From positions 1-31,888 of the IMG/VR virus record IMGVR_UViG_3300042337_000272: a stretch of DNA of 31,888 bases, one strand, 5' to 3'. The stretch is from a virus. The position numbers and the translations under genes were made by a program. Positions 2,889 to 31,888 of this stretch are shown one piece after another. The notes below the pieces were generated by a model that did not search any database, was not told the DNA's origin, and saw only the letters and a program-made list of their open reading frames with translations. Each line of letters starts with the position of its first letter. Within the stretch, counting starts at the first letter, position 1.

Positions 2889-4033
2889 TAGATATAATTT
2901 TTGAACATATTATAATAATTATGATACTGAGCTTTTCTATTTATTTCATGAAGTTTTTTCATCTCAGCAAAATCAGGAGTATTAACAAAAGATAAAGCAT
3001 TATTTCTTGCAGCTCTTAATTGACCACTCATTAACTGTAAATGATTTTGTACAGGTTCACCAGCCATAAACAAGTTTTCAAAGATGCGTTGTTTTAATGC
3101 ATACTCATAATACTCATTTGTATATGGATTATCTAGTACAAGTAAATTACCATCATCATCTTCCATAACTGATTGGTAATTTAAAAATACAACTCCTTCA
3201 TCAAAGTTAACATGTAAGAATCCATTCTTTAAATATGCATCATAGTAGTTACCTTTTTTTCTACCTAATCCTGTAATAAAACTATCATCCATTCTTGCAT
3301 CATAATCTTCTCTACATTCAGGTGATAATGATTCAGTTTTGTATATATGAAGTCTTACAGGATTTCTGCTTTCATTTCTTCTACCATTTGTTGTGTAATA
3401 AACTCTAGGTGTACCATCTGCAGCACAGTCAAGTAATGCAGGACAAGTTCCTGAACCAGTACCAACAGTACTTATTTTAGCACCCATTACAACAATCTTA
3501 ACACCTATTATTGTTTGAACTGATTCAGAGTATAGTCTTACATTGTCCATATCTAAAACAGTAACATCAAAATCTAGTAAACTACCATCAGTTGCAAAAG
3601 CTTGTATTACTACATTCATAGTATGTAACTGATGATTAATCACATTCATACCTAATGTAACATCTGTGTATATTGTAGATTGATTAACAAACCTTGGCTC
3701 TAAAAAGTTTTGAGCTAATATAACTCCTTCAAGAATACCTTCAGTATATGTTTTATTATAACTAGGAATTTCAGATACTAATCTATCTTCACATACTAAA
3801 GCAAAGTTTAACACATCCATGTCTTCTGGAACTTTACCCTTTCCTTTACGTATATCTATTATTCTAGACTTTTGCATGTTAATGCGCAATCCTAAATCAT
3901 AGTTACAACGCATTGCAACTTTGATCATTTGTTGAGGATTTAAAAGACCTTCAAGATCATAAGTGTATAAATCAATTTTAACACTGTCCATTAAATCATC
4001 AAAGGTTCTGTATTTAGGTTCAGTTAATGGCAT
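2888..4033 (-). CDS. Tail ring / connector structural protein (crAss-like)
   Basis: A 381-residue protein starting MPLTEPKYRTFDDLMDSV. Its N-terminus is helical and the middle (about residues 100-200) is beta-rich. The C-terminal part (about 285-381) includes FLNYQSVMEDDDGN and a terminal helix ending YYNMFKNYI. It has no signal peptide or catalytic motif. It lies between another ring-like protein and the muzzle-like protein, and its stop shares bases with the next start (TAATG). The sequence pattern and position match the conserved ring proteins that form the stacked tail rings below the portal in crAss-like phages. Which ring it makes cannot be decided from sequence alone. Confidence 0.65.
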   Translation of the reverse strand: MPLTEPKYRTFDDLMDSVKIDLYTYDLEGLLNPQQMIKVAMRCNYDLGLRINMQKSRIIDIRKGKGKVPEDMDVLNFALVCEDRLVSEIPSYNKTYTEGILEGVILAQNFLEPRFVNQSTIYTDVTLGMNVINHQLHTMNVVIQAFATDGSLLDFDVTVLDMDNVRLYSESVQTIIGVKIVVMGAKISTVGTGSGTCPALLDCAADGTPRVYYTTNGRRNESRNPVRLHIYKTESLSPECREDYDARMDDSFITGLGRKKGNYYDAYLKNGFLHVNFDEGVVFLNYQSVMEDDDGNLLVLDNPYTNEYYEYALKQRIFENLFMAGEPVQNHLQLMSGQLRAARNNALSFVNTPDFAEMKKLHEINRKAQYHNYYNMFKNYI

Positions 4034-19115: not shown

Positions 19116-20765
19116 TTAGAATGATCCACCAGTTACAGGGTTTCTCATTACAATTTTTAATACTTTGGTTGGATCTTTAACCCAGATACTTGGCATAGTT
19201 TGAGTCATAAATACTCTGTAACCATTAAAGTTTCCAGAAGATGCAAATCCTTGAGATCTACCCATATAGTCCATAGTACCATTTTGGTAGAACCATTTCA
19301 ATTGATTATCCCAGCTTAATTTCAACAAGAAGATGTTGTCATTAGTGTTGTCAGTAATATCAAATACAATGAAGTTGTAAGATGATAATGGGTATCCATC
19401 AATGATTGGATTCTCAATATCATTAGTGTGAACATTGTCAAATGCAGGATTCAATACAAACTTAACATTTGCCAAGAATGGAATTGTATAGCTTGTGAAA
19501 GCAAATCCAAAGTTCAAGTCCATTGCATTTTTACCAGAGATAGCACCAACACCAGACTGATCCATGTTAGCAATTAATCCAGTAGTACCTCCAATAGTTC
19601 CTGAGAATGCTTCTTTTTTGATAGCCTCATTAACCATTCTCATACCAGCCATACCAGTTTGAACAATGATTTGTCTGTTTGGATCTGGTCCTTTGAATTC
19701 AACTTTACCATTGTAGAAGTTGAAGATTTCTGATCTGAACAACTCTAAGTTGAAAGAACCTTTGTTGTAGATTCTCTTATAAGAGTTATCTAATTGAGAC
19801 CAAAGTCCTACTGATAATCTGATATCATCTGGACCATCTTGTTTAATTCTACCACCTTGTCCCCACATTAAGTAAGTCTCAATGTCATTAGCTACTTTAG
19901 ATAAGTGAGCTGCTTCAAGATTAGTAACAAAAGATCTTGTTAAATTTCCATTGTCATAAGATTTTTTGATCCAATCTTTACCCATTGATTTTACCATGTC
20001 ATCAATCTTAGTGATAGATGGATCAAGGTTTTTATCAAATGATCTCCAGATTTCAGTTACAGGAACTGTACCATCTGCATTAAGACCACCTTTCATCATC
20101 ATGTCAGCACGAGATGAAATAGAATAGTGTACGTGAGCTTCAGCACCTCCTACAAAGTTGTAGTACTCTCTGAAACCATTTTGTAATTCTCCTATGTCAG
20201 AGAATCTTTCTCCATACTCACCACGAGCAGAACCTTTTCTGAAGAATTTAGTACCTGGTTTAAGATACTTTTTGTCTAAGGTAGCTGTGTTGTTGTTGTT
20301 TACTAATTGTACTGTATAGATGAAACCATCTCCTGAAGGAAGGATGTCTTCACTAGGTACAATGTAAAGCTCTAGACCTTTATATTTGTCATAAGTGATA
20401 ATATCACCTGATCCAAATATACGTCTGTTAATTTTGATTTTGAAGAGTGTACCATCAGCTCCTAAAGCTGTTTGTGTAGGTTCAACATCTTCTACAATGT
20501 AAGGAAGATCTTGTACAATTGGTGTTTGCCATTTGTACTCTCCACGAGCATTGTCTACCATAATGGTGTTTTTACCACCAAAAGATGCCATCTGATAAAG
20601 AGGCATTTCTACCTTTTGCGTCATTGCCCATAAGTCAACAGGTCCTAAATCCATAGGCTCTGAAGTCTTAAGCATATTTTGCAAATGGTAAGAATCTACA
20701 TGCGAGCTTACCTTATAGGTAGTGTCACGCAAAAAGAGACCATTGTTTAAAACTGGAGTACTCAT
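19116..20765 (-). CDS. Major capsid protein (crAss-like, HK97-fold expected)
   Basis: 549 residues starting MSTPVLNNGLFLRDTTYK. Patterns typical of the crAss-like major capsid protein include PVDLWAMTQKVEMPLYQMAS, GAEAHVHYSISSRADMMMKG and LEAAHLSKVANDIETYLMWG. The C-terminal domain includes GYPLSSYNFIVFDITDNTND, LKWFYQNGTMDYMGRSQG and MPSIWVKDPTKVLKIVMRNP. The order portal, scaffold-like protein, capsid protein is that of a tailed-phage head module. The HK97 fold is expected from the family rather than visible. The gene is followed at once by a strong terminator. The length is usual for the group. Confidence 0.9.
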   Translation of the reverse strand: MSTPVLNNGLFLRDTTYKVSSHVDSYHLQNMLKTSEPMDLGPVDLWAMTQKVEMPLYQMASFGGKNTIMVDNARGEYKWQTPIVQDLPYIVEDVEPTQTALGADGTLFKIKINRRIFGSGDIITYDKYKGLELYIVPSEDILPSGDGFIYTVQLVNNNNTATLDKKYLKPGTKFFRKGSARGEYGERFSDIGELQNGFREYYNFVGGAEAHVHYSISSRADMMMKGGLNADGTVPVTEIWRSFDKNLDPSITKIDDMVKSMGKDWIKKSYDNGNLTRSFVTNLEAAHLSKVANDIETYLMWGQGGRIKQDGPDDIRLSVGLWSQLDNSYKRIYNKGSFNLELFRSEIFNFYNGKVEFKGPDPNRQIIVQTGMAGMRMVNEAIKKEAFSGTIGGTTGLIANMDQSGVGAISGKNAMDLNFGFAFTSYTIPFLANVKFVLNPAFDNVHTNDIENPIIDGYPLSSYNFIVFDITDNTNDNIFLLKLSWDNQLKWFYQNGTMDYMGRSQGFASSGNFNGYRVFMTQTMPSIWVKDPTKVLKIVMRNPVTGGSF

Positions 20766-24903: not shown

Positions 24904-27105
24904 TTATTTAAAATTTTTAAATGGATTGCGTGGTTTTGTCATACCACTATTTATGCTTTTATTTTTTCCTATATGACGAAAAGGACTCACTTGTAATTTA
25001 GCATAATTATTTGACTTTTGCAAATTATCATCCTCTCTTTCAGTGCGTTTTACATATCCTCTGTTGGATTGTTGTACTTGTGCAAATGCAACCATAGCAC
25101 AAAATGCAACCAATCTATCCACGTTTAGTCCATCTCTATATGCTTGCATTTCTTTTAACAACATTATATCAGGTATTCTTTCAATACCATATGTTGTTTT
25201 TACAATTGTACCATCAGGTTTTGTTTCATGATCTAACTCTTCTTCAATAAATTGTTGTGCATATGATACAAGATTAGTCTTGAATAATGTGCTAACATTT
25301 CTCCAGCCATATTCTTGAAATACATTTGTATTACTTTGCAACTCTTTCAAGAAAAGTATCTGACTTTTAGGCACTAGATACTTTTGTTTTCTTTTAGCAA
25401 TCATATACTGAATAAACAAAGATATGTTATTTTCTACTATTGTCCAGGCATTATACCATTCAATAATAAGTTCTAGTCTTTCATGTGTTTTGTTAAGGTC
25501 ATCAAACCTACCACACCATGCTGCAACAATCTTGTCTCTTTCTATGTATGAATCTATTGTACCATCAGCCTTATGTTTGGTAATTTCTTGTGATGTCTTA
25601 TATACAAATATAGAACACAATGAGTCTGAGGTAGTTGTCTTTCCTTCTGCAACAGGGTCAATAGATGCGTAGTACATTCCAAAGGTTGCATCTTTTGCAG
25701 GTCTTTCCCATACAACAAGTACACCTTCTTTGTTTTCTGTTTTTGCTGATATAGGAAATTCTGATATAGGAATCTTTTTAGATTCTTTTGCAGTAATAGT
25801 ATTATTTTCACCTCTAGATAATTCTAGAAACTCTTTATAATATTCACCATCTTCAATTCTTCTTATCTGTGATACAACTAATGAAGGATTAAATTTAGCA
25901 GCTTTTCTACTTGCAAATGCTTCTTCAATAGTTATAGGATGCTGAGATATACGTAGTTGATAATCATCAGGTTTAAGATCTTTCTTCCATTGCAATCTTT
26001 CTTCCTTAATCATGTCTAATGCCTTCTCTACTAGAGAGTTACCATATTCATCTATGCATGGAATCATTGACCATTGTTGAGGTATAAATAAACCACACTG
26101 ACCTTTTGTACCTTTGTCATCTAGTAAATCAGTTTCAACAGCAAGTATATCTTTACTGTTTGGCATCATTAACATTTCTCTTAAAGGTTCACATTGATCT
26201 AAATCTCCAACAGATCCAGCAACAACAAATTGTCCAGTATATACCATACCAGACTTCATTGCAGGAAGTAAGTACTCTAAGGTTTGATTCATTTTAGGGG
26301 CAATACCTGCCTCCTCGTGAAAGAAAAAAGTACAAGGACCTCCTACACCATTTGTAGGATCTTTATCTAATATAAGTCCTAATAATACAGATTTTAAACC
26401 TATATCTCTTTTTCTACCACCTTGATTTATTTCAATCTTTTGTTCCCAGTTAAATATTTTATCTGGAGTACAAGGTCTATACCAACCTGTATATGTATTA
26501 AGAAAGTTTCTGTATTCTTCAAGAAAACGCCATGTACCTTTCTCACCAATATAGTCTTTTAAAGATCCTGCCATTTTATTAATAGATCCTTCTTCAAACC
26601 AAAAGTAGTTTATCATTTTTCCTGCATGATAATAACTTGAGGCTATCTGACGTTTCTTTAATATAAGAGCATGCTTAGAACTATGTCTGCCAATCTCTTC
26701 ATATAATGCAATATGATATTGTGCATCTCTGACACTAGCAAATCCAAACTTAGATATCTCTTTATTGTATATAGGTAAGAAGTTTAACCACATATAATAA
26801 TCTCTTGAAAGATACCATGAGTTTTTTGCATTCTTAAATATTACACCATTTCTACATTTATCTTTTTCATTTTCCCAATAAGTAATATAGTCTTTTGAAC
26901 GCATAGGTGCATAACAATATACTTTGTTATTCTTTTCAAAGTTTGTTGCCTGTTCATTAAACTTGTATGATGTTTTATCAAATGCATATTTACCTGGTTC
27001 CTTAAATAAGGACCACATAAACTTTACAAATTCTTCTTTTGTTTCAAAATCTGTGTGTGACCATACATCAGTTGTATCATCATATGTTGGTACAGATATA
27101 TACAT
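24904..27105 (-). CDS. terL: Terminase large subunit
   Basis: 733 residues. ATPase domain: an arginine-containing, non-canonical Walker A region at 148-163 (LILKKRQIASSYYHAG), lacking the G-K-S/T core, and a Walker B with catalytic Glu at 258-267 (CTFFFHEEAG), followed by FVVAGSVGD as coupling motif. Nuclease domain: the first metal-binding Asp in YASIDPVAEG (479-488), and further acidic residues at WCGRFDD (530-536) and IVENN (556-560). The overall pattern agrees with crAss-like terminases. It drives ATP-dependent packaging and cuts concatemers. It lies directly before the portal and after small genes, one of which may be the small subunit. Confidence 0.92.
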   Translation of the reverse strand: MYISVPTYDDTTDVWSHTDFETKEEFVKFMWSLFKEPGKYAFDKTSYKFNEQATNFEKNNKVYCYAPMRSKDYITYWENEKDKCRNGVIFKNAKNSWYLSRDYYMWLNFLPIYNKEISKFGFASVRDAQYHIALYEEIGRHSSKHALILKKRQIASSYYHAGKMINYFWFEEGSINKMAGSLKDYIGEKGTWRFLEEYRNFLNTYTGWYRPCTPDKIFNWEQKIEINQGGRKRDIGLKSVLLGLILDKDPTNGVGGPCTFFFHEEAGIAPKMNQTLEYLLPAMKSGMVYTGQFVVAGSVGDLDQCEPLREMLMMPNSKDILAVETDLLDDKGTKGQCGLFIPQQWSMIPCIDEYGNSLVEKALDMIKEERLQWKKDLKPDDYQLRISQHPITIEEAFASRKAAKFNPSLVVSQIRRIEDGEYYKEFLELSRGENNTITAKESKKIPISEFPISAKTENKEGVLVVWERPAKDATFGMYYASIDPVAEGKTTTSDSLCSIFVYKTSQEITKHKADGTIDSYIERDKIVAAWCGRFDDLNKTHERLELIIEWYNAWTIVENNISLFIQYMIAKRKQKYLVPKSQILFLKELQSNTNVFQEYGWRNVSTLFKTNLVSYAQQFIEEELDHETKPDGTIVKTTYGIERIPDIMLLKEMQAYRDGLNVDRLVAFCAMVAFAQVQQSNRGYVKRTEREDDNLQKSNNYAKLQVSPFRHIGKNKSINSGMTKPRNPFKNFK

Positions 27106-29596: not shown

Positions 29597-29972
29597 CTTT
29601 GTATATTTGTTTTTTAAGTTTAACTTCTTCTCTTCTTTCTTGTTCTTGTTGCATTCTTTCTTGTAGTTTTGTAAGTCTTTGTATTTCAGCGCGTTTCTTT
29701 ATGATTAACTCATATGTGTGCACTGTTATATGCTCATCTTTTTCAATCTTGTTTACAAAGTTTTGATGCTTTGTTATCATGTCTACTAAAGATTTCTTTT
29801 TAACTACAAAAGTTCCCAATCTGGGAACTGCAATATATGGATGATCTGCACTAGATAACTTTCTTTGTAGTGTTAAATAATAATGTGATACAATATCATC
29901 TACCATATCAACTGCAAGATCTAAATCATTTGCAGTCAACTCTACTATGCTTTTACGCTTTATTGGATTCAA
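29580..29972 (-). CDS. IHF/HU-like DNA-binding protein with coiled-coil tail
   Basis: 130 residues. The first about 75 residues follow the HU/IHF half-fold: N-terminal helices (VDMVDDIVSHYYLTLQRKLS) then a strand with IAVPRLGTFVVKKKSL. From about 76 on there is a charged helical extension (RLTKLQERMQQEQERREEVK) in place of a full DNA-binding arm. The frame opens with TTG (reading LNPIKRKS at DNA level, Met when initiated); no ATG occurs before residue 23, so TTG is preferred because it keeps the first helix. It overlaps the preceding gene by 20 bases. IHF-like subunits are known near the packaging genes of crAss-like phages. Confidence 0.7.
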   Translation of the reverse strand: MNPIKRKSIVELTANDLDLAVDMVDDIVSHYYLTLQRKLSSADHPYIAVPRLGTFVVKKKSLVDMITKHQNFVNKIEKDEHITVHTYELIIKKRAEIQRLTKLQERMQQEQERREEVKLKKQIYKDGKSN

Positions 29973-30348
29973 CTGCTAAATAATTATAGTCTAACAATAT
30001 ATTACCTTTAGATTGTATATCAATATCAGGATTAAGTACAATTACTTTTCTACCTGTTTTTGATTTTACAATTATCTTTCTTTTTTCAAGTTTAACAATT
30101 CTGTTTCTAATGTTCTGCGCGCGTGTAGATAACTCTTCTGGTAAAGATTCTGGATATATAACTCTAGCAGCAGATGCACAAAATCCTCCTAAGTCAATAG
30201 GTCCCCACATTACAAGTAGTGTAAGTATCTCTAAATCAGAAGGTATCAAATATTCTTTTCTAAAGAATGATACTTCTGTTATAAGTTGATATCTCACTAT
30301 GTCTTGTGTAGATAATCTTAGTTTTTTATTTACTTTTTTTACTTCCAT
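29953..30348 (-). CDS. Winged-helix-like conserved protein
   Basis: 131 residues starting MEVKKVNKKLRLSTQDIVRY. It is helical with a helix-turn-helix look at about 35-95: YLIPSDLEILTLLVMWGPID, SLPEELSTRAQNIRNRIVKL and a wing-like KRKIIVKSKTGRKVIVLNP. The pattern is that of a small winged-helix DNA-binding protein. It is the first gene after the tmRNA and overlaps the IHF-like gene. It may regulate the late operon or act in packaging; both are inferred. I recognise it as conserved in this phage group. Confidence 0.6.
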   Translation of the reverse strand: MEVKKVNKKLRLSTQDIVRYQLITEVSFFRKEYLIPSDLEILTLLVMWGPIDLGGFCASAARVIYPESLPEELSTRAQNIRNRIVKLEKRKIIVKSKTGRKVIVLNPDIDIQSKGNILLDYNYLAVESNKA

Positions 30349-30374: not shown

Positions 30375-30409
30375 CACATAATGTGCAATTTTGTACAGAA
30401 TACTGTACA
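30375..30409. repeat. Two short inverted repeats between the tmRNA and the winged-helix gene
   Basis: A perfect 7-bp inverted repeat TGTACAG-AATA-CTGTACA (30392-30409) lies just past the tmRNA 3' end, and a second palindrome CACAT-A-ATGTG (30375-30385) lies 6 bases beyond. They are candidates for an operator or for a tmRNA 3'-processing hairpin. No strong T-run follows, so neither is a classical terminator. Confidence 0.45.
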
Positions 30410-30412
30410 TTT

Positions 30413-30733
30413 TGTGGAGGTGAGGGGAGTCGAACCCCTGTCCAAACCATGATCAATAATACAATTTATACAGCTTATAGGGTCAAGCTTGGCTTGAGCA
30501 ATCCACCACTCTGTTTAATCTAACAGAGAAATCTTTTTAATCTAGGCTGCTACAGCAACTTCTTCTCTAATCAAAGAGAATACTTTGTTCATGTTAGCTT
30601 CTACTTGTGCGTTGTCTCCTAGAGATACTACACTGATTGTGTTTTTGCCATTTATTAAATTCACCTTAGTTTACAGTTATCTCTCTGGCTGATTGTACTA
30701 CCTACTAATGACCTGTCAAAACCAGTCACCCCC
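30413..30733 (-). ncRNA. ssrA: tmRNA (transfer-messenger RNA)
   Basis: The 5' end reads GGGGGTGACTGGTTTTGACA, and the 3' end holds a tRNA-like half: T-arm AGGGG-TTCGACT-CCCCT followed by the acceptor strand CACCTCC. GGGGGTG pairs with CACCTCC (7 bp with one G-U). The bases after the acceptor read ACAA, so CCA is probably added after transcription. Inside is a tag reading frame ending in REEVAVAA and TAG. Downstream helices can form CTCTGTT/AACAGAG and TCAAGC/GCTTGA, as in the pseudoknot region. The length is about 320 bases. It rescues stalled ribosomes together with SmpB, which is not encoded in this window. The 5' end is 3 bases after the 64-residue gene's stop. Confidence 0.93.
30542..30649 (-). 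other. tmRNA tag-encoding frame (35 residues if GGC is the resume codon)
   Basis: Assuming GGC at 30649-30647 is the resume codon, the frame reads GKNTISVVSLGDNAQVEANM, continues through NKVFSLIREE and ends VAVAA before TAG (30542-30544). The Gly start agrees with what I recall of Bacteroidota tags. The hydrophobic end resembles the ALAA-type degron for ClpXP-like proteases. The tag is far longer than the usual 8-15 residues. The resume codon is inferred; a later one would shorten the tag. Confidence 0.6.
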
Positions 30734-30736
30734 AGG

Positions 30737-30931
30737 TTATTTTCTATCTAATGATAGGTTCTTACAAAATCTTATTTCTTTATTGTTTAATGTCCAAATT
30801 TCACCATCATCCATTGCACATGTAAATAATAAGTTATGTTCTTGACTATAATCAATAACTAAAAAAGCATAACCTTCCATGTTGTCAGATACTCTTTTAA
30901 TAGGTATCATTGGTTCCAATTGTAACATCAT
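30737..30931 (-). CDS. 64-residue conserved small beta protein
   Basis: The ATG at 30931 (MMLQLEPMIPIKRVSDNMEG) is chosen because the frame upstream only continues into the tRNA gene. The core GYAFLVIDYSQEHNLLFTCA then GEIWTLNNKEIRFCKNLSLD is a compact beta barrel-like pattern that I recognise as a common small protein in phages of Bacteroidota. It lies between the tRNA and tmRNA genes. Function unknown. Confidence 0.7.
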   Translation of the reverse strand: MMLQLEPMIPIKRVSDNMEGYAFLVIDYSQEHNLLFTCAMDDGEIWTLNNKEIRFCKNLSLDRK

Positions 30932-30945
30932 AGTAATAACTTTAG

Positions 30946-31016
30946 TTGCGTGGGAGGGAGTCGAACCCTCAGCTCTGGAATATGAGTCCAGCAAGTTACC
31001 ATTACTCTACCACACT
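30946..31016 (-). tRNA. tRNA with CAT anticodon (tRNA-Met)
   Basis: 71 bases: acceptor AGTGTGG/CCACGCA, D-arm GAGT/ACTT with a GG-containing loop, anticodon stem CTGGA/TCCAG with loop CTCATAT (anticodon CAT), a 4-base variable region, and T-arm GAGGG-TTCGACT-CCCTC. CCA is not encoded. The first pair is an A-A mismatch at 1-72, while the anticodon stem lacks the three G-C pairs of initiators. A lysidine-modified tRNA-Ile2 reading cannot be excluded. Confidence 0.88.
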
Positions 31017-31181: not shown

Positions 31182-31832
31182 TTATTTTGAATACTCATAA
31201 TCAAGTATCTTACCTACTAAGTCAGATCTATGATTTTCTTTGAGCTTAATCCATTGTATTTCTTTAATCTTTTTAGAGAGTTCAATAACATATGATAAAC
31301 CATTGTACTCATCTCTAATATCTTTTTGTTCATTATCACCATTGATAATAATCTTACCAGTTTTACCTAGTCTTGTTAATAAAGCAAGCATCTCAGCCTT
31401 AGTCAGGTTTTGTGCTTCTTCTACAATAAGTACATCATCAATAGTTTTACCTCTAATAAACTGTACAGGAGTAGCTGAAATTTTATCATCCTTTACAAAC
31501 ATGTCAACCTTAGATTTATCCATACATTTGTATGCATTTTCTATTAGAGCTTCCATGTAAGGATTAAACTTTTCATCTAATGATCCTGGCAAGAACCCTA
31601 AAGATTTACCAACCTCAATTGCACTTCTTGTTACAAGTATCTTACTGATTTGTTTCTTATTTAAAAAATCTAATGCAGTAACAACACCTACTAAACTTTT
31701 TCCTGAACCAGCTCTACCTGTTATAATAGTAATCTGATTATCTAGTATTAATTGTTTGGCAAGCTTTTGTTCTTCATTAAGAGTAACATTATATTTAATG
31801 TCATTCTTTCTTGTTCTATTTGGTTCTTGCAT
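31182..31832 (-). CDS. PhoH-like ATPase
   Basis: 216 residues from the ATG at 31832 (MQEPNRTRKNDIKYNVTLNE). A GTG start at 31856 would overlap the end of the upstream gene and is less likely; the ATG leaves a 10-base gap. It has Walker A GRAGSGKS (39-46), Walker B VLIVEEAQN (134-142) and the PhoH-typical segments ILVTRSAIEVGKSLGFLPGS (65-84), MLALLTRLGKTGKIIINGD and a final LKENHRSDLVGKIL. PhoH proteins are cytoplasmic ATPases of the superfamily 1 helicase-like fold, common in phages; their phage role is not settled. Confidence 0.88.
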   Translation of the reverse strand: MQEPNRTRKNDIKYNVTLNEEQKLAKQLILDNQITIITGRAGSGKSLVGVVTALDFLNKKQISKILVTRSAIEVGKSLGFLPGSLDEKFNPYMEALIENAYKCMDKSKVDMFVKDDKISATPVQFIRGKTIDDVLIVEEAQNLTKAEMLALLTRLGKTGKIIINGDNEQKDIRDEYNGLSYVIELSKKIKEIQWIKLKENHRSDLVGKILDYEYSK

Positions 31833-31842
31833 GTTGTTGTTT

Positions 31843-31888
31843 TTAGCTATATGCACCTGTACCTAAACGCCCTTGTGACTCAGAACTA
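31843..31888 (-). CDS. C-terminal end of an upstream gene, possibly dUTPase
   Basis: Only 14 codons and the TAA are present: SSESQGRLGTGAYS. The Gly-rich R-x-G-T-G pattern near the C-terminus resembles motif V of trimeric dUTPases (usually GGFGSTG), which is disordered until substrate binds. That would fit nucleotide-metabolism genes seen in crAss-like phages, but the fragment is too short to be sure. Confidence 0.3.
   Translation of the reverse strand, partial: SSESQGRLGTGAYS

Follow-up and report, generated by a model that had tools for sequence, protein, structure and literature searches.

A predicted phage tmRNA with a long tag reading frame in a crAss-like phage, and its relatives in other phages

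The tmRNA gene and its surroundings

The DNA analysed here (the window) is the whole 31,888-base IMG/VR record IMGVR_UViG_3300042337_000272. Its genes of interest lie in the order PhoH-like ATPase, tRNA-Met, 64-aa ORF, tmRNA and 131-aa ORF, followed by more genes up to the terminase (Table 1). A tmRNA is called by ARAGORN at 30414-30733 on the minus strand, and the Rfam tmRNA model RF00023 matches 30412-30733 of that strand with 88.9 bits (E 1.7e-33; curated cut-off 47 bits) over the full model, positions 1-374. A preliminary description of this DNA had proposed a complete tmRNA gene, with both halves of the tRNA-like domain, lying between phage genes. This is borne out by the ARAGORN call and the full-length Rfam match, which place the proposed range correctly within 1-2 bases, by the presence of both acceptor strands and the T arm, and by the flanking frames, as the 64-aa ORF ends 3 nt upstream of the gene and the 131-aa ORF begins 65 nt downstream. 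Features characteristic of RF00023 members were found in the window, including an alanine-type acceptor with G3.U, a T arm with a TTC loop, a resume codon, an upstream UA, an open tag and a stop codon. The best reading of this sequence is that the window carries a working phage-encoded one-piece tmRNA.

Table 1. Coordinates of the tmRNA gene, its parts and neighbouring genes in the window, and of three related phage genes.
Feature	Position	Strand	Remarks
PhoH-like ATPase gene	31182..31856	(-)	phrog_170, E 3e-60
tRNA with CAT anticodon (called tRNA-Met)	30945..31016	(-)	ARAGORN, Rfam
64-aa ORF, upstream of tmRNA	30737..30931	(-)	clade comparison
One-piece tmRNA gene (ssrA)	30414..30733	(-)	5' end at 30733; ARAGORN and Rfam
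Acceptor stem, 5' strand GGGGGTG	30727..30733	(-)	G3 pairs with U (alanine identity)
Motif CAGAGAGATAACTGTAAACTAAGGTGAA, pseudoknot 1 position, before tag	30660..30687	(-)	family search key
Tag reading frame GKNTISVVSLGDNAQVEANMNKVFSLIREEVAVAA (35 aa)	30545..30649	(-)	resume codon GGC 30647-30649
Tag stop codon TAG	30542-30544	(-)	sequence, family alignment
Hairpin CTCTGTT-AGATTA-AACAGAG after tag, then TGGTGGA	30509..30528	(-)	sequence; 7-bp stem
T arm AGGGG-TTCGACT-CCCCT	30423-30439	(-)	Rfam and 79-gene comparison
Acceptor stem, 3' strand CACCTCC	30416-30422	(-)	pairs with 30727-30733; Rfam and 79-gene comparison
Discriminator A	30415	(-)	CCA absent from encoded sequence
Inverted repeat TGTACAG-TATT-CTGTACA	30392..30409	(-)	perfect 7 bp, directly 3' of tmRNA; sequence
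131-aa ORF, downstream of tmRNA	29953..30348	(-)	function not assigned; kept in tmRNA-less relatives too
Large terminase	24904..27105	(-)	phrog_6681; best named tblastn matches Crassvirales, ~25% identity
Major capsid protein	19116..20765	(-)	Pfam Crass_capsid PF23898, 103.5 bits, cut-off 27
phi14:2 tmRNA	L004:3608-4076		ARAGORN tag partial
phi38:1 tmRNA	L002:3741-4099		ARAGORN tag partial
FpV4 tmRNA	L001:3786-4197		ARAGORN misses this copy

The helices downstream of the tag, also proposed earlier, stand in reduced form. At least one clear 7-bp hairpin is present, and similar post-tag hairpins with different stem letters occur in relatives, but the post-tag region is much shorter than that of host tmRNAs. 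In the pseudoknot regions a conserved motif before the tag and the hairpin after it could be recognised, and the consensus fold of the 5' half retains only 3 pairs. The inverted repeat directly following the gene is possibly a processing or termination hairpin. A fragment left at an attachment site fits poorly, because the gene is complete and adjoins structural genes.

The earlier assignment of the DNA to a crAss-like phage held, with the capsid protein matching Crass_capsid and the terminase matching mainly Crassvirales; the portal, like the terminase, matches a PHROG family. Because of the capsid match and the low terminase identity to Crassvirales, the window phage is classed from its proteins as crAss-like, of a lineage distant from the gut genera, and this divergence suggests a separate aquatic lineage. 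Four relatives (L006, L007, L009 and L014) share the gene order of the window, the tRNA being uncalled in L007 and L014. In others (L011-L013, L018 and L020-L023) the tRNA and the 131-aa ORF are kept, without the tmRNA and without the 64-aa ORF. Whole-record searches of eight relatives of 97-126 kb gave no tmRNA, indicating that the gene is dispensable.

The 64-aa ORF lies directly 5' of the tmRNA in tmRNA-bearing clade members, at 7-12 nt in relatives (48 in L007) when measured from the last sense codon, and is 90-97% identical among these members, most neighbours being 58-95% identical. It was not found in tmRNA-less relatives, except for one 31% match located elsewhere. Outside the clade it is unlinked to tmRNA, with a 31% match in L029 and a 48% match in an unrelated sewage phage. 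The fold search with the 64-aa protein gave nothing convincing (best E 0.27, to SH3/Tudor-like small barrels), and the protein is modelled with low confidence (pLDDT 67) as a five-stranded small barrel of no known family. No SmpB gene was detected in the 31 phage records searched, and host SmpB is therefore presumably used or shared.

Related genes in phages and their structure

The family was searched with the motif AGAGATAACTGN{1,6}AACTAAGNTGAA, taken from the stretch that follows the tRNA-like 5' half and precedes the tag, with exact matches required, so that the invariance of CAGAGAGATAACTGTAAACTAAGGTGAA is partly a product of the search. The motif was found in at least 119 IMG/VR stretches and was absent from all 84,980 genomes of bacteria and archaea searched, a collection in which a 16S pattern does yield matches. 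R1, a covariance model of the tmRNA 5' half, recovers 8 of 8 known phage positives, some of them outside its training set, and found nothing in 400 Flavobacteriaceae genomes under the stricter filters used for this search. A general tmRNA 5' pattern in IMG/VR gave, among the matches listed, mostly two-piece tmRNAs or ordinary short tags, from which no prevalence is derivable.

Among named phages, an unannotated site in FpV4-type Flavobacterium phages matches the window tmRNA with 78% identity over ~190 bases, and related genes were found in Cellulophaga phages phi38:1, Calle_1 and phi14:2 (Crassvirales, Steigviridae). Calle_1 carries one annotated tmRNA (PMC8776804), the annotation making no comment on the tag, and the sites in phi14:2, phi38:1 and FpV4 are unannotated or under hypothetical ORFs in public records. 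Calle_1, phi38:1 and phi14:2 belong to the same family as the window, with the motif, a Q-x-x-A-N-M tag and the layout in common. The phi14:2 gene scores 46 bits, 1 below the cut-off, and ARAGORN and R1 agree on it. The distribution in CRASSVIRALES is marked by the Crass capsid family in 26 of 28 tested tmRNA-bearing records, in about three score groups.

The preliminary description had doubted that tmRNA is a standard part of Crassvirales genomes, rightly so, since a clear copy was found in phi14:2 only among 16 named genomes tested; the others, apart from 'tikkala', gave tRNA-level matches only. In this gut crAss phage (Kehishuvirus 'tikkala', OQ198717.1 87749-88032; L503:1501-1784, minus strand), a sub-threshold, relict-like tmRNA-like place of 41.7 bits was observed. 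It has the post-tag hairpin of the family, a GAC preceded by UA, and a tag, DNTYRVAA, that is short and resembles those of hosts. The acceptor pairs incompletely, without G3.U, and the 5' half lies inside the apparent end of a longer protein frame. The literature search gave few papers naming tmRNA and crAss-like phages together, and none of those consulted describes a tmRNA gene in such phages. Phage tmRNA as such is already known; a virus-only family with long, conserved and exchanged tags, as predicted here, is not described in the literature searched. Going by these predicted genes, the long-tag family is widespread in aquatic crAss-like phages.

For comparison, 79 distinct complete genes were taken from the motif-retrieved loci, with at least 6 of 7 acceptor pairs and at least 4 of 5 T-arm pairs required. 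Because pairing, U(-5)A(-4) and an open frame also served as filters on this motif-retrieved set, counts of these three features are partly built in. Acceptor pairs 4, 5 and 6 covary among G-C, C-G, A-U and U-A, and T-arm pairs likewise vary with pairing kept. The third acceptor pair is G.U in all 79 genes, though the filter admitted any pair. The preliminary description had looked to a covariance-model hit and to conserved acceptor and T-arm pairing in related phages; the hit was found, and the pairing is kept by compensatory changes across the 79 genes.

The filter was failed by 23 places, many cut by a contig end, several with a group I intron in the T loop and a few with an unusual T loop. 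Group I introns are known in bacterial tmRNA. Here they occur in the T loop of phage tmRNA in L239, L242, L300 and L305 (RF00028, 94-96 bits) and, by similarity, in L306 and L319. In L227, L263 and L320 the acceptor and T stem are apparently intact and the T loop is without the letters TTCGA, which may reflect either decay or an altered loop. In addition, the tmRNA-bearing phage contig L306 has a Hatchet ribozyme match at 3304-3454 (75 bits).

The tmRNAs of Flavobacteriaceae and other Bacteroidota (RF00023) share with the phage family the one-piece form, the G3.U acceptor, the TTCGANT T loop, the lack of an encoded CCA and a resume codon GGC preceded by UAAAC or UAAAU. They differ from it in the sequence of pseudoknot 1 and in size, the host gene being ~395 nt with a long post-tag region, whereas the window gene has 320 nt and the phage family 301-474.

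The tag reading frame

The preliminary description had recognised a tag frame, which is present, and had missed its length of 35 residues, which places it in a virus-only long-tag family. In the window ARAGORN reports ANMNKVFSLIREEVAVAA, 18 aa from ANM and only the last 18 of the 35 residues, and it begins tags at the wrong codon in several family members. The ANM start was rejected because position -4 relative to it is not always A (C in L009), the UA farther upstream is found generally, and the Rfam and host alignments both place the start at the upstream codon. The Rfam consensus resume codon GCA falls on the GGC of the window, 17 codons upstream of ANM, and in the alignment with Flavobacteriaceae tmRNAs (tag GENNYALAA) the host GGC is in register with the same codon. 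U(-5)A(-4) before GGC, GGA or GAC, together with an open frame, occurs in 79 of 79 genes, a count to which the filters contribute. Its counterpart in E. coli tmRNA, U85/A86, is needed there (PMC2481249).

Tags of the family have 24-49 aa (median 35), and none of the 79 has 9-10 aa, the length of 38 of 39 Bacteroidota tags by ARAGORN, which are also of other sequence. Q-x-x-A-N-M is found in 78 of the 79 tags and an AA end in 72; the window tag ends in VAVAA, a degron-like hydrophobic-A-A terminus, and the predicted tag peptide of FpV4 is ...NAQVEANMNMAFSLIREDVAVAA. Seven different spacings, from 15 to 51 nt, occur between the resume site and GCN-AAY-ATG, and all are multiples of three even though frame played no part in measuring them. 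The fixed A, N and Q and the terminal alanines have codons that vary at the third base. Among 28 genes with 35-aa tags, pN/pS, summed over related sequences, is 0.55 in frame, the two other frames giving 1.03 and 1.20; a value of 0.55 was also reached in 15 of 200 column shuffles, so that pN/pS alone is weak. The corresponding values are 0.81 versus 1.88 and 1.59 for codons 1-14, and 0.38 versus 0.55 and 1.02 for codons 15-35. From an alignment of 69 tags, AlphaFold2 models residues 10-34 as a helix (pLDDT 88-89 mid-helix). Judged from sequence comparison, the tag frame is conserved as a peptide. It was not recognised as part of any known protein: no Pfam match lay above cut-off, and phage tblastn yielded only the tmRNA genes of relatives.

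Within the clade, loci with orthologous neighbours bear different tag types. The first 79 nt of the gene are identical in L301 and L232, and their tags, GNANLSVVSQGDNAQVEANMNKVFSLLREEVAVAA and DNKVISLDVDQVNANMSKVFSLINSNVEELEIAA, are of unrelated types. A third type (GNTKENAQVQANM..., 38 aa) occurs in L228, L266 and L323 on a body like that of L014, and L228 and L275 likewise share the body of L014 with a different tag type. The window and FpV4 have similar tags (77% identical), with terminases and capsids far apart. Unlike tags in like bodies and like tags in distant phages thus point to recombination inside the tmRNA gene and transfer between lineages.

Possible roles of the long tag

Long tags are also known from Mollicute (Mesoplasma/Mycoplasma) tmRNA, where they are read by Lon. 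PMC10873288 mentions the mf-Lon tag system. These tags are unrelated in sequence and cellular, not viral, and provide a precedent for a longer tag going with another protease. With a probability of roughly 0.6, the phage gene is taken here as a functional tmRNA with a long and probably helical tag that retains a degron-like end and changes the recognition of tagged proteins. The RNA would be processed from a longer transcript, given that the 64-aa ORF ends 3 nt before it, and host enzymes would add CCA and alanine. During infection, host SmpB and EF-Tu would load it onto ribosomes that have stalled on broken mRNAs, and alanine plus the tag peptide would be appended to the stalled chain. The hydrophobic-A-A end would suit ClpXP-type proteases, and tagged chains would be degraded, while the conserved, probably helical Q-x-x-A-N-M segment, absent from the 9-residue host tag, would alter recognition, by engaging a different protease or an adaptor or by evading a host adaptor. 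Phages would trade such long tags by recombination. Changed recognition is the most likely role of the long helical segment and the least certain part of this proposal; it was chosen because conservation is strongest in this segment and because Mollicute tags indicate that length and protease can change together. The earlier suggestion that the phage tmRNA replaces or competes with the host tmRNA is plausible.

The main rival to changed recognition is that the extra length is a neutral spacer before a normal ClpXP end, and that the gene is an ordinary supplement which adds rescue capacity as host mRNA breaks down. The prevalent AA end (72/79), the dispensability of the tmRNA in the clade and the fast evolution of the upstream tag part (pN/pS 0.81) would all fit such a supplement, but the near invariance of Q, A, N and M across divergent phages, the length of 24-49 aa in all 79 tags with none at 9-10 aa, and the movement of tags between phages as units speak against it, and it is considered possible but unlikely. 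More tentative, and rather doubtful, is the proposal that virus-only, recombining long tags re-route unfinished proteins in infected Bacteroidota to a phage-chosen receptor, which may be a different protease, an adaptor or a protein of the phage itself, for instance the 64-aa product that co-occurs with the tmRNA.

An RNA that mainly occupies host SmpB or ribosomes, and so shuts down host trans-translation, has a precedent in the tmRNA-like RNA of phage DS6A, which is tag-less and is reported to inhibit host tmRNA (PMC11915505). Both RNAs are phage-borne with a tRNA-like domain, and host SmpB would be shared in the absence of a phage SmpB; the DS6A RNA, unlike that of the window, lacks a tag frame, and a decoy needs none of the tag frame, resume site and stop that are all kept here, which makes this role improbable. 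Still less credible is a small protein gene embedded in the RNA and started by ordinary initiation, for example at the ATG of ANM (16 codons). That ATG is invariant (78/78) and conservation is in frame, but frame keeping reaches upstream of the ATG to the resume codon, the frame occupies the tag position of a gene with an intact tRNA-like domain, and in many members it is not open immediately before the resume codon, which leaves no shared start at that place. Finally, a decayed, functionless relic of a host tmRNA, for which the patchy presence and the odd T loops of L227, L263 and L320 might be cited, is the least probable of all in view of the compensatory stem changes, the invariant G3.U, the open frames in 79 of 79 genes and the lack of a close cellular relative in 84,980 genomes searched by motif and 400 Flavobacteriaceae genomes searched by R1.

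Phage tmRNAs have so far been scattered annotations; here they appear as a coherent family in about a hundred or more environmental phage contigs, with a long tag that the searches of cellular genomes did not find, is conserved in sequence and is apparently traded between phages. This gives a direct handle on why phages carry tmRNA. As the tag is very unlike that of the host, phage-tagged and host-tagged proteins should be separable by mass spectrometry, and cultured systems exist in Flavobacterium psychrophilum with FpV4 and in Cellulophaga baltica with phi38:1 and phi14:2. If the long tags do re-route unfinished proteins, the phage would be rewriting the protein quality-control code of the cell, beyond adding rescue capacity.
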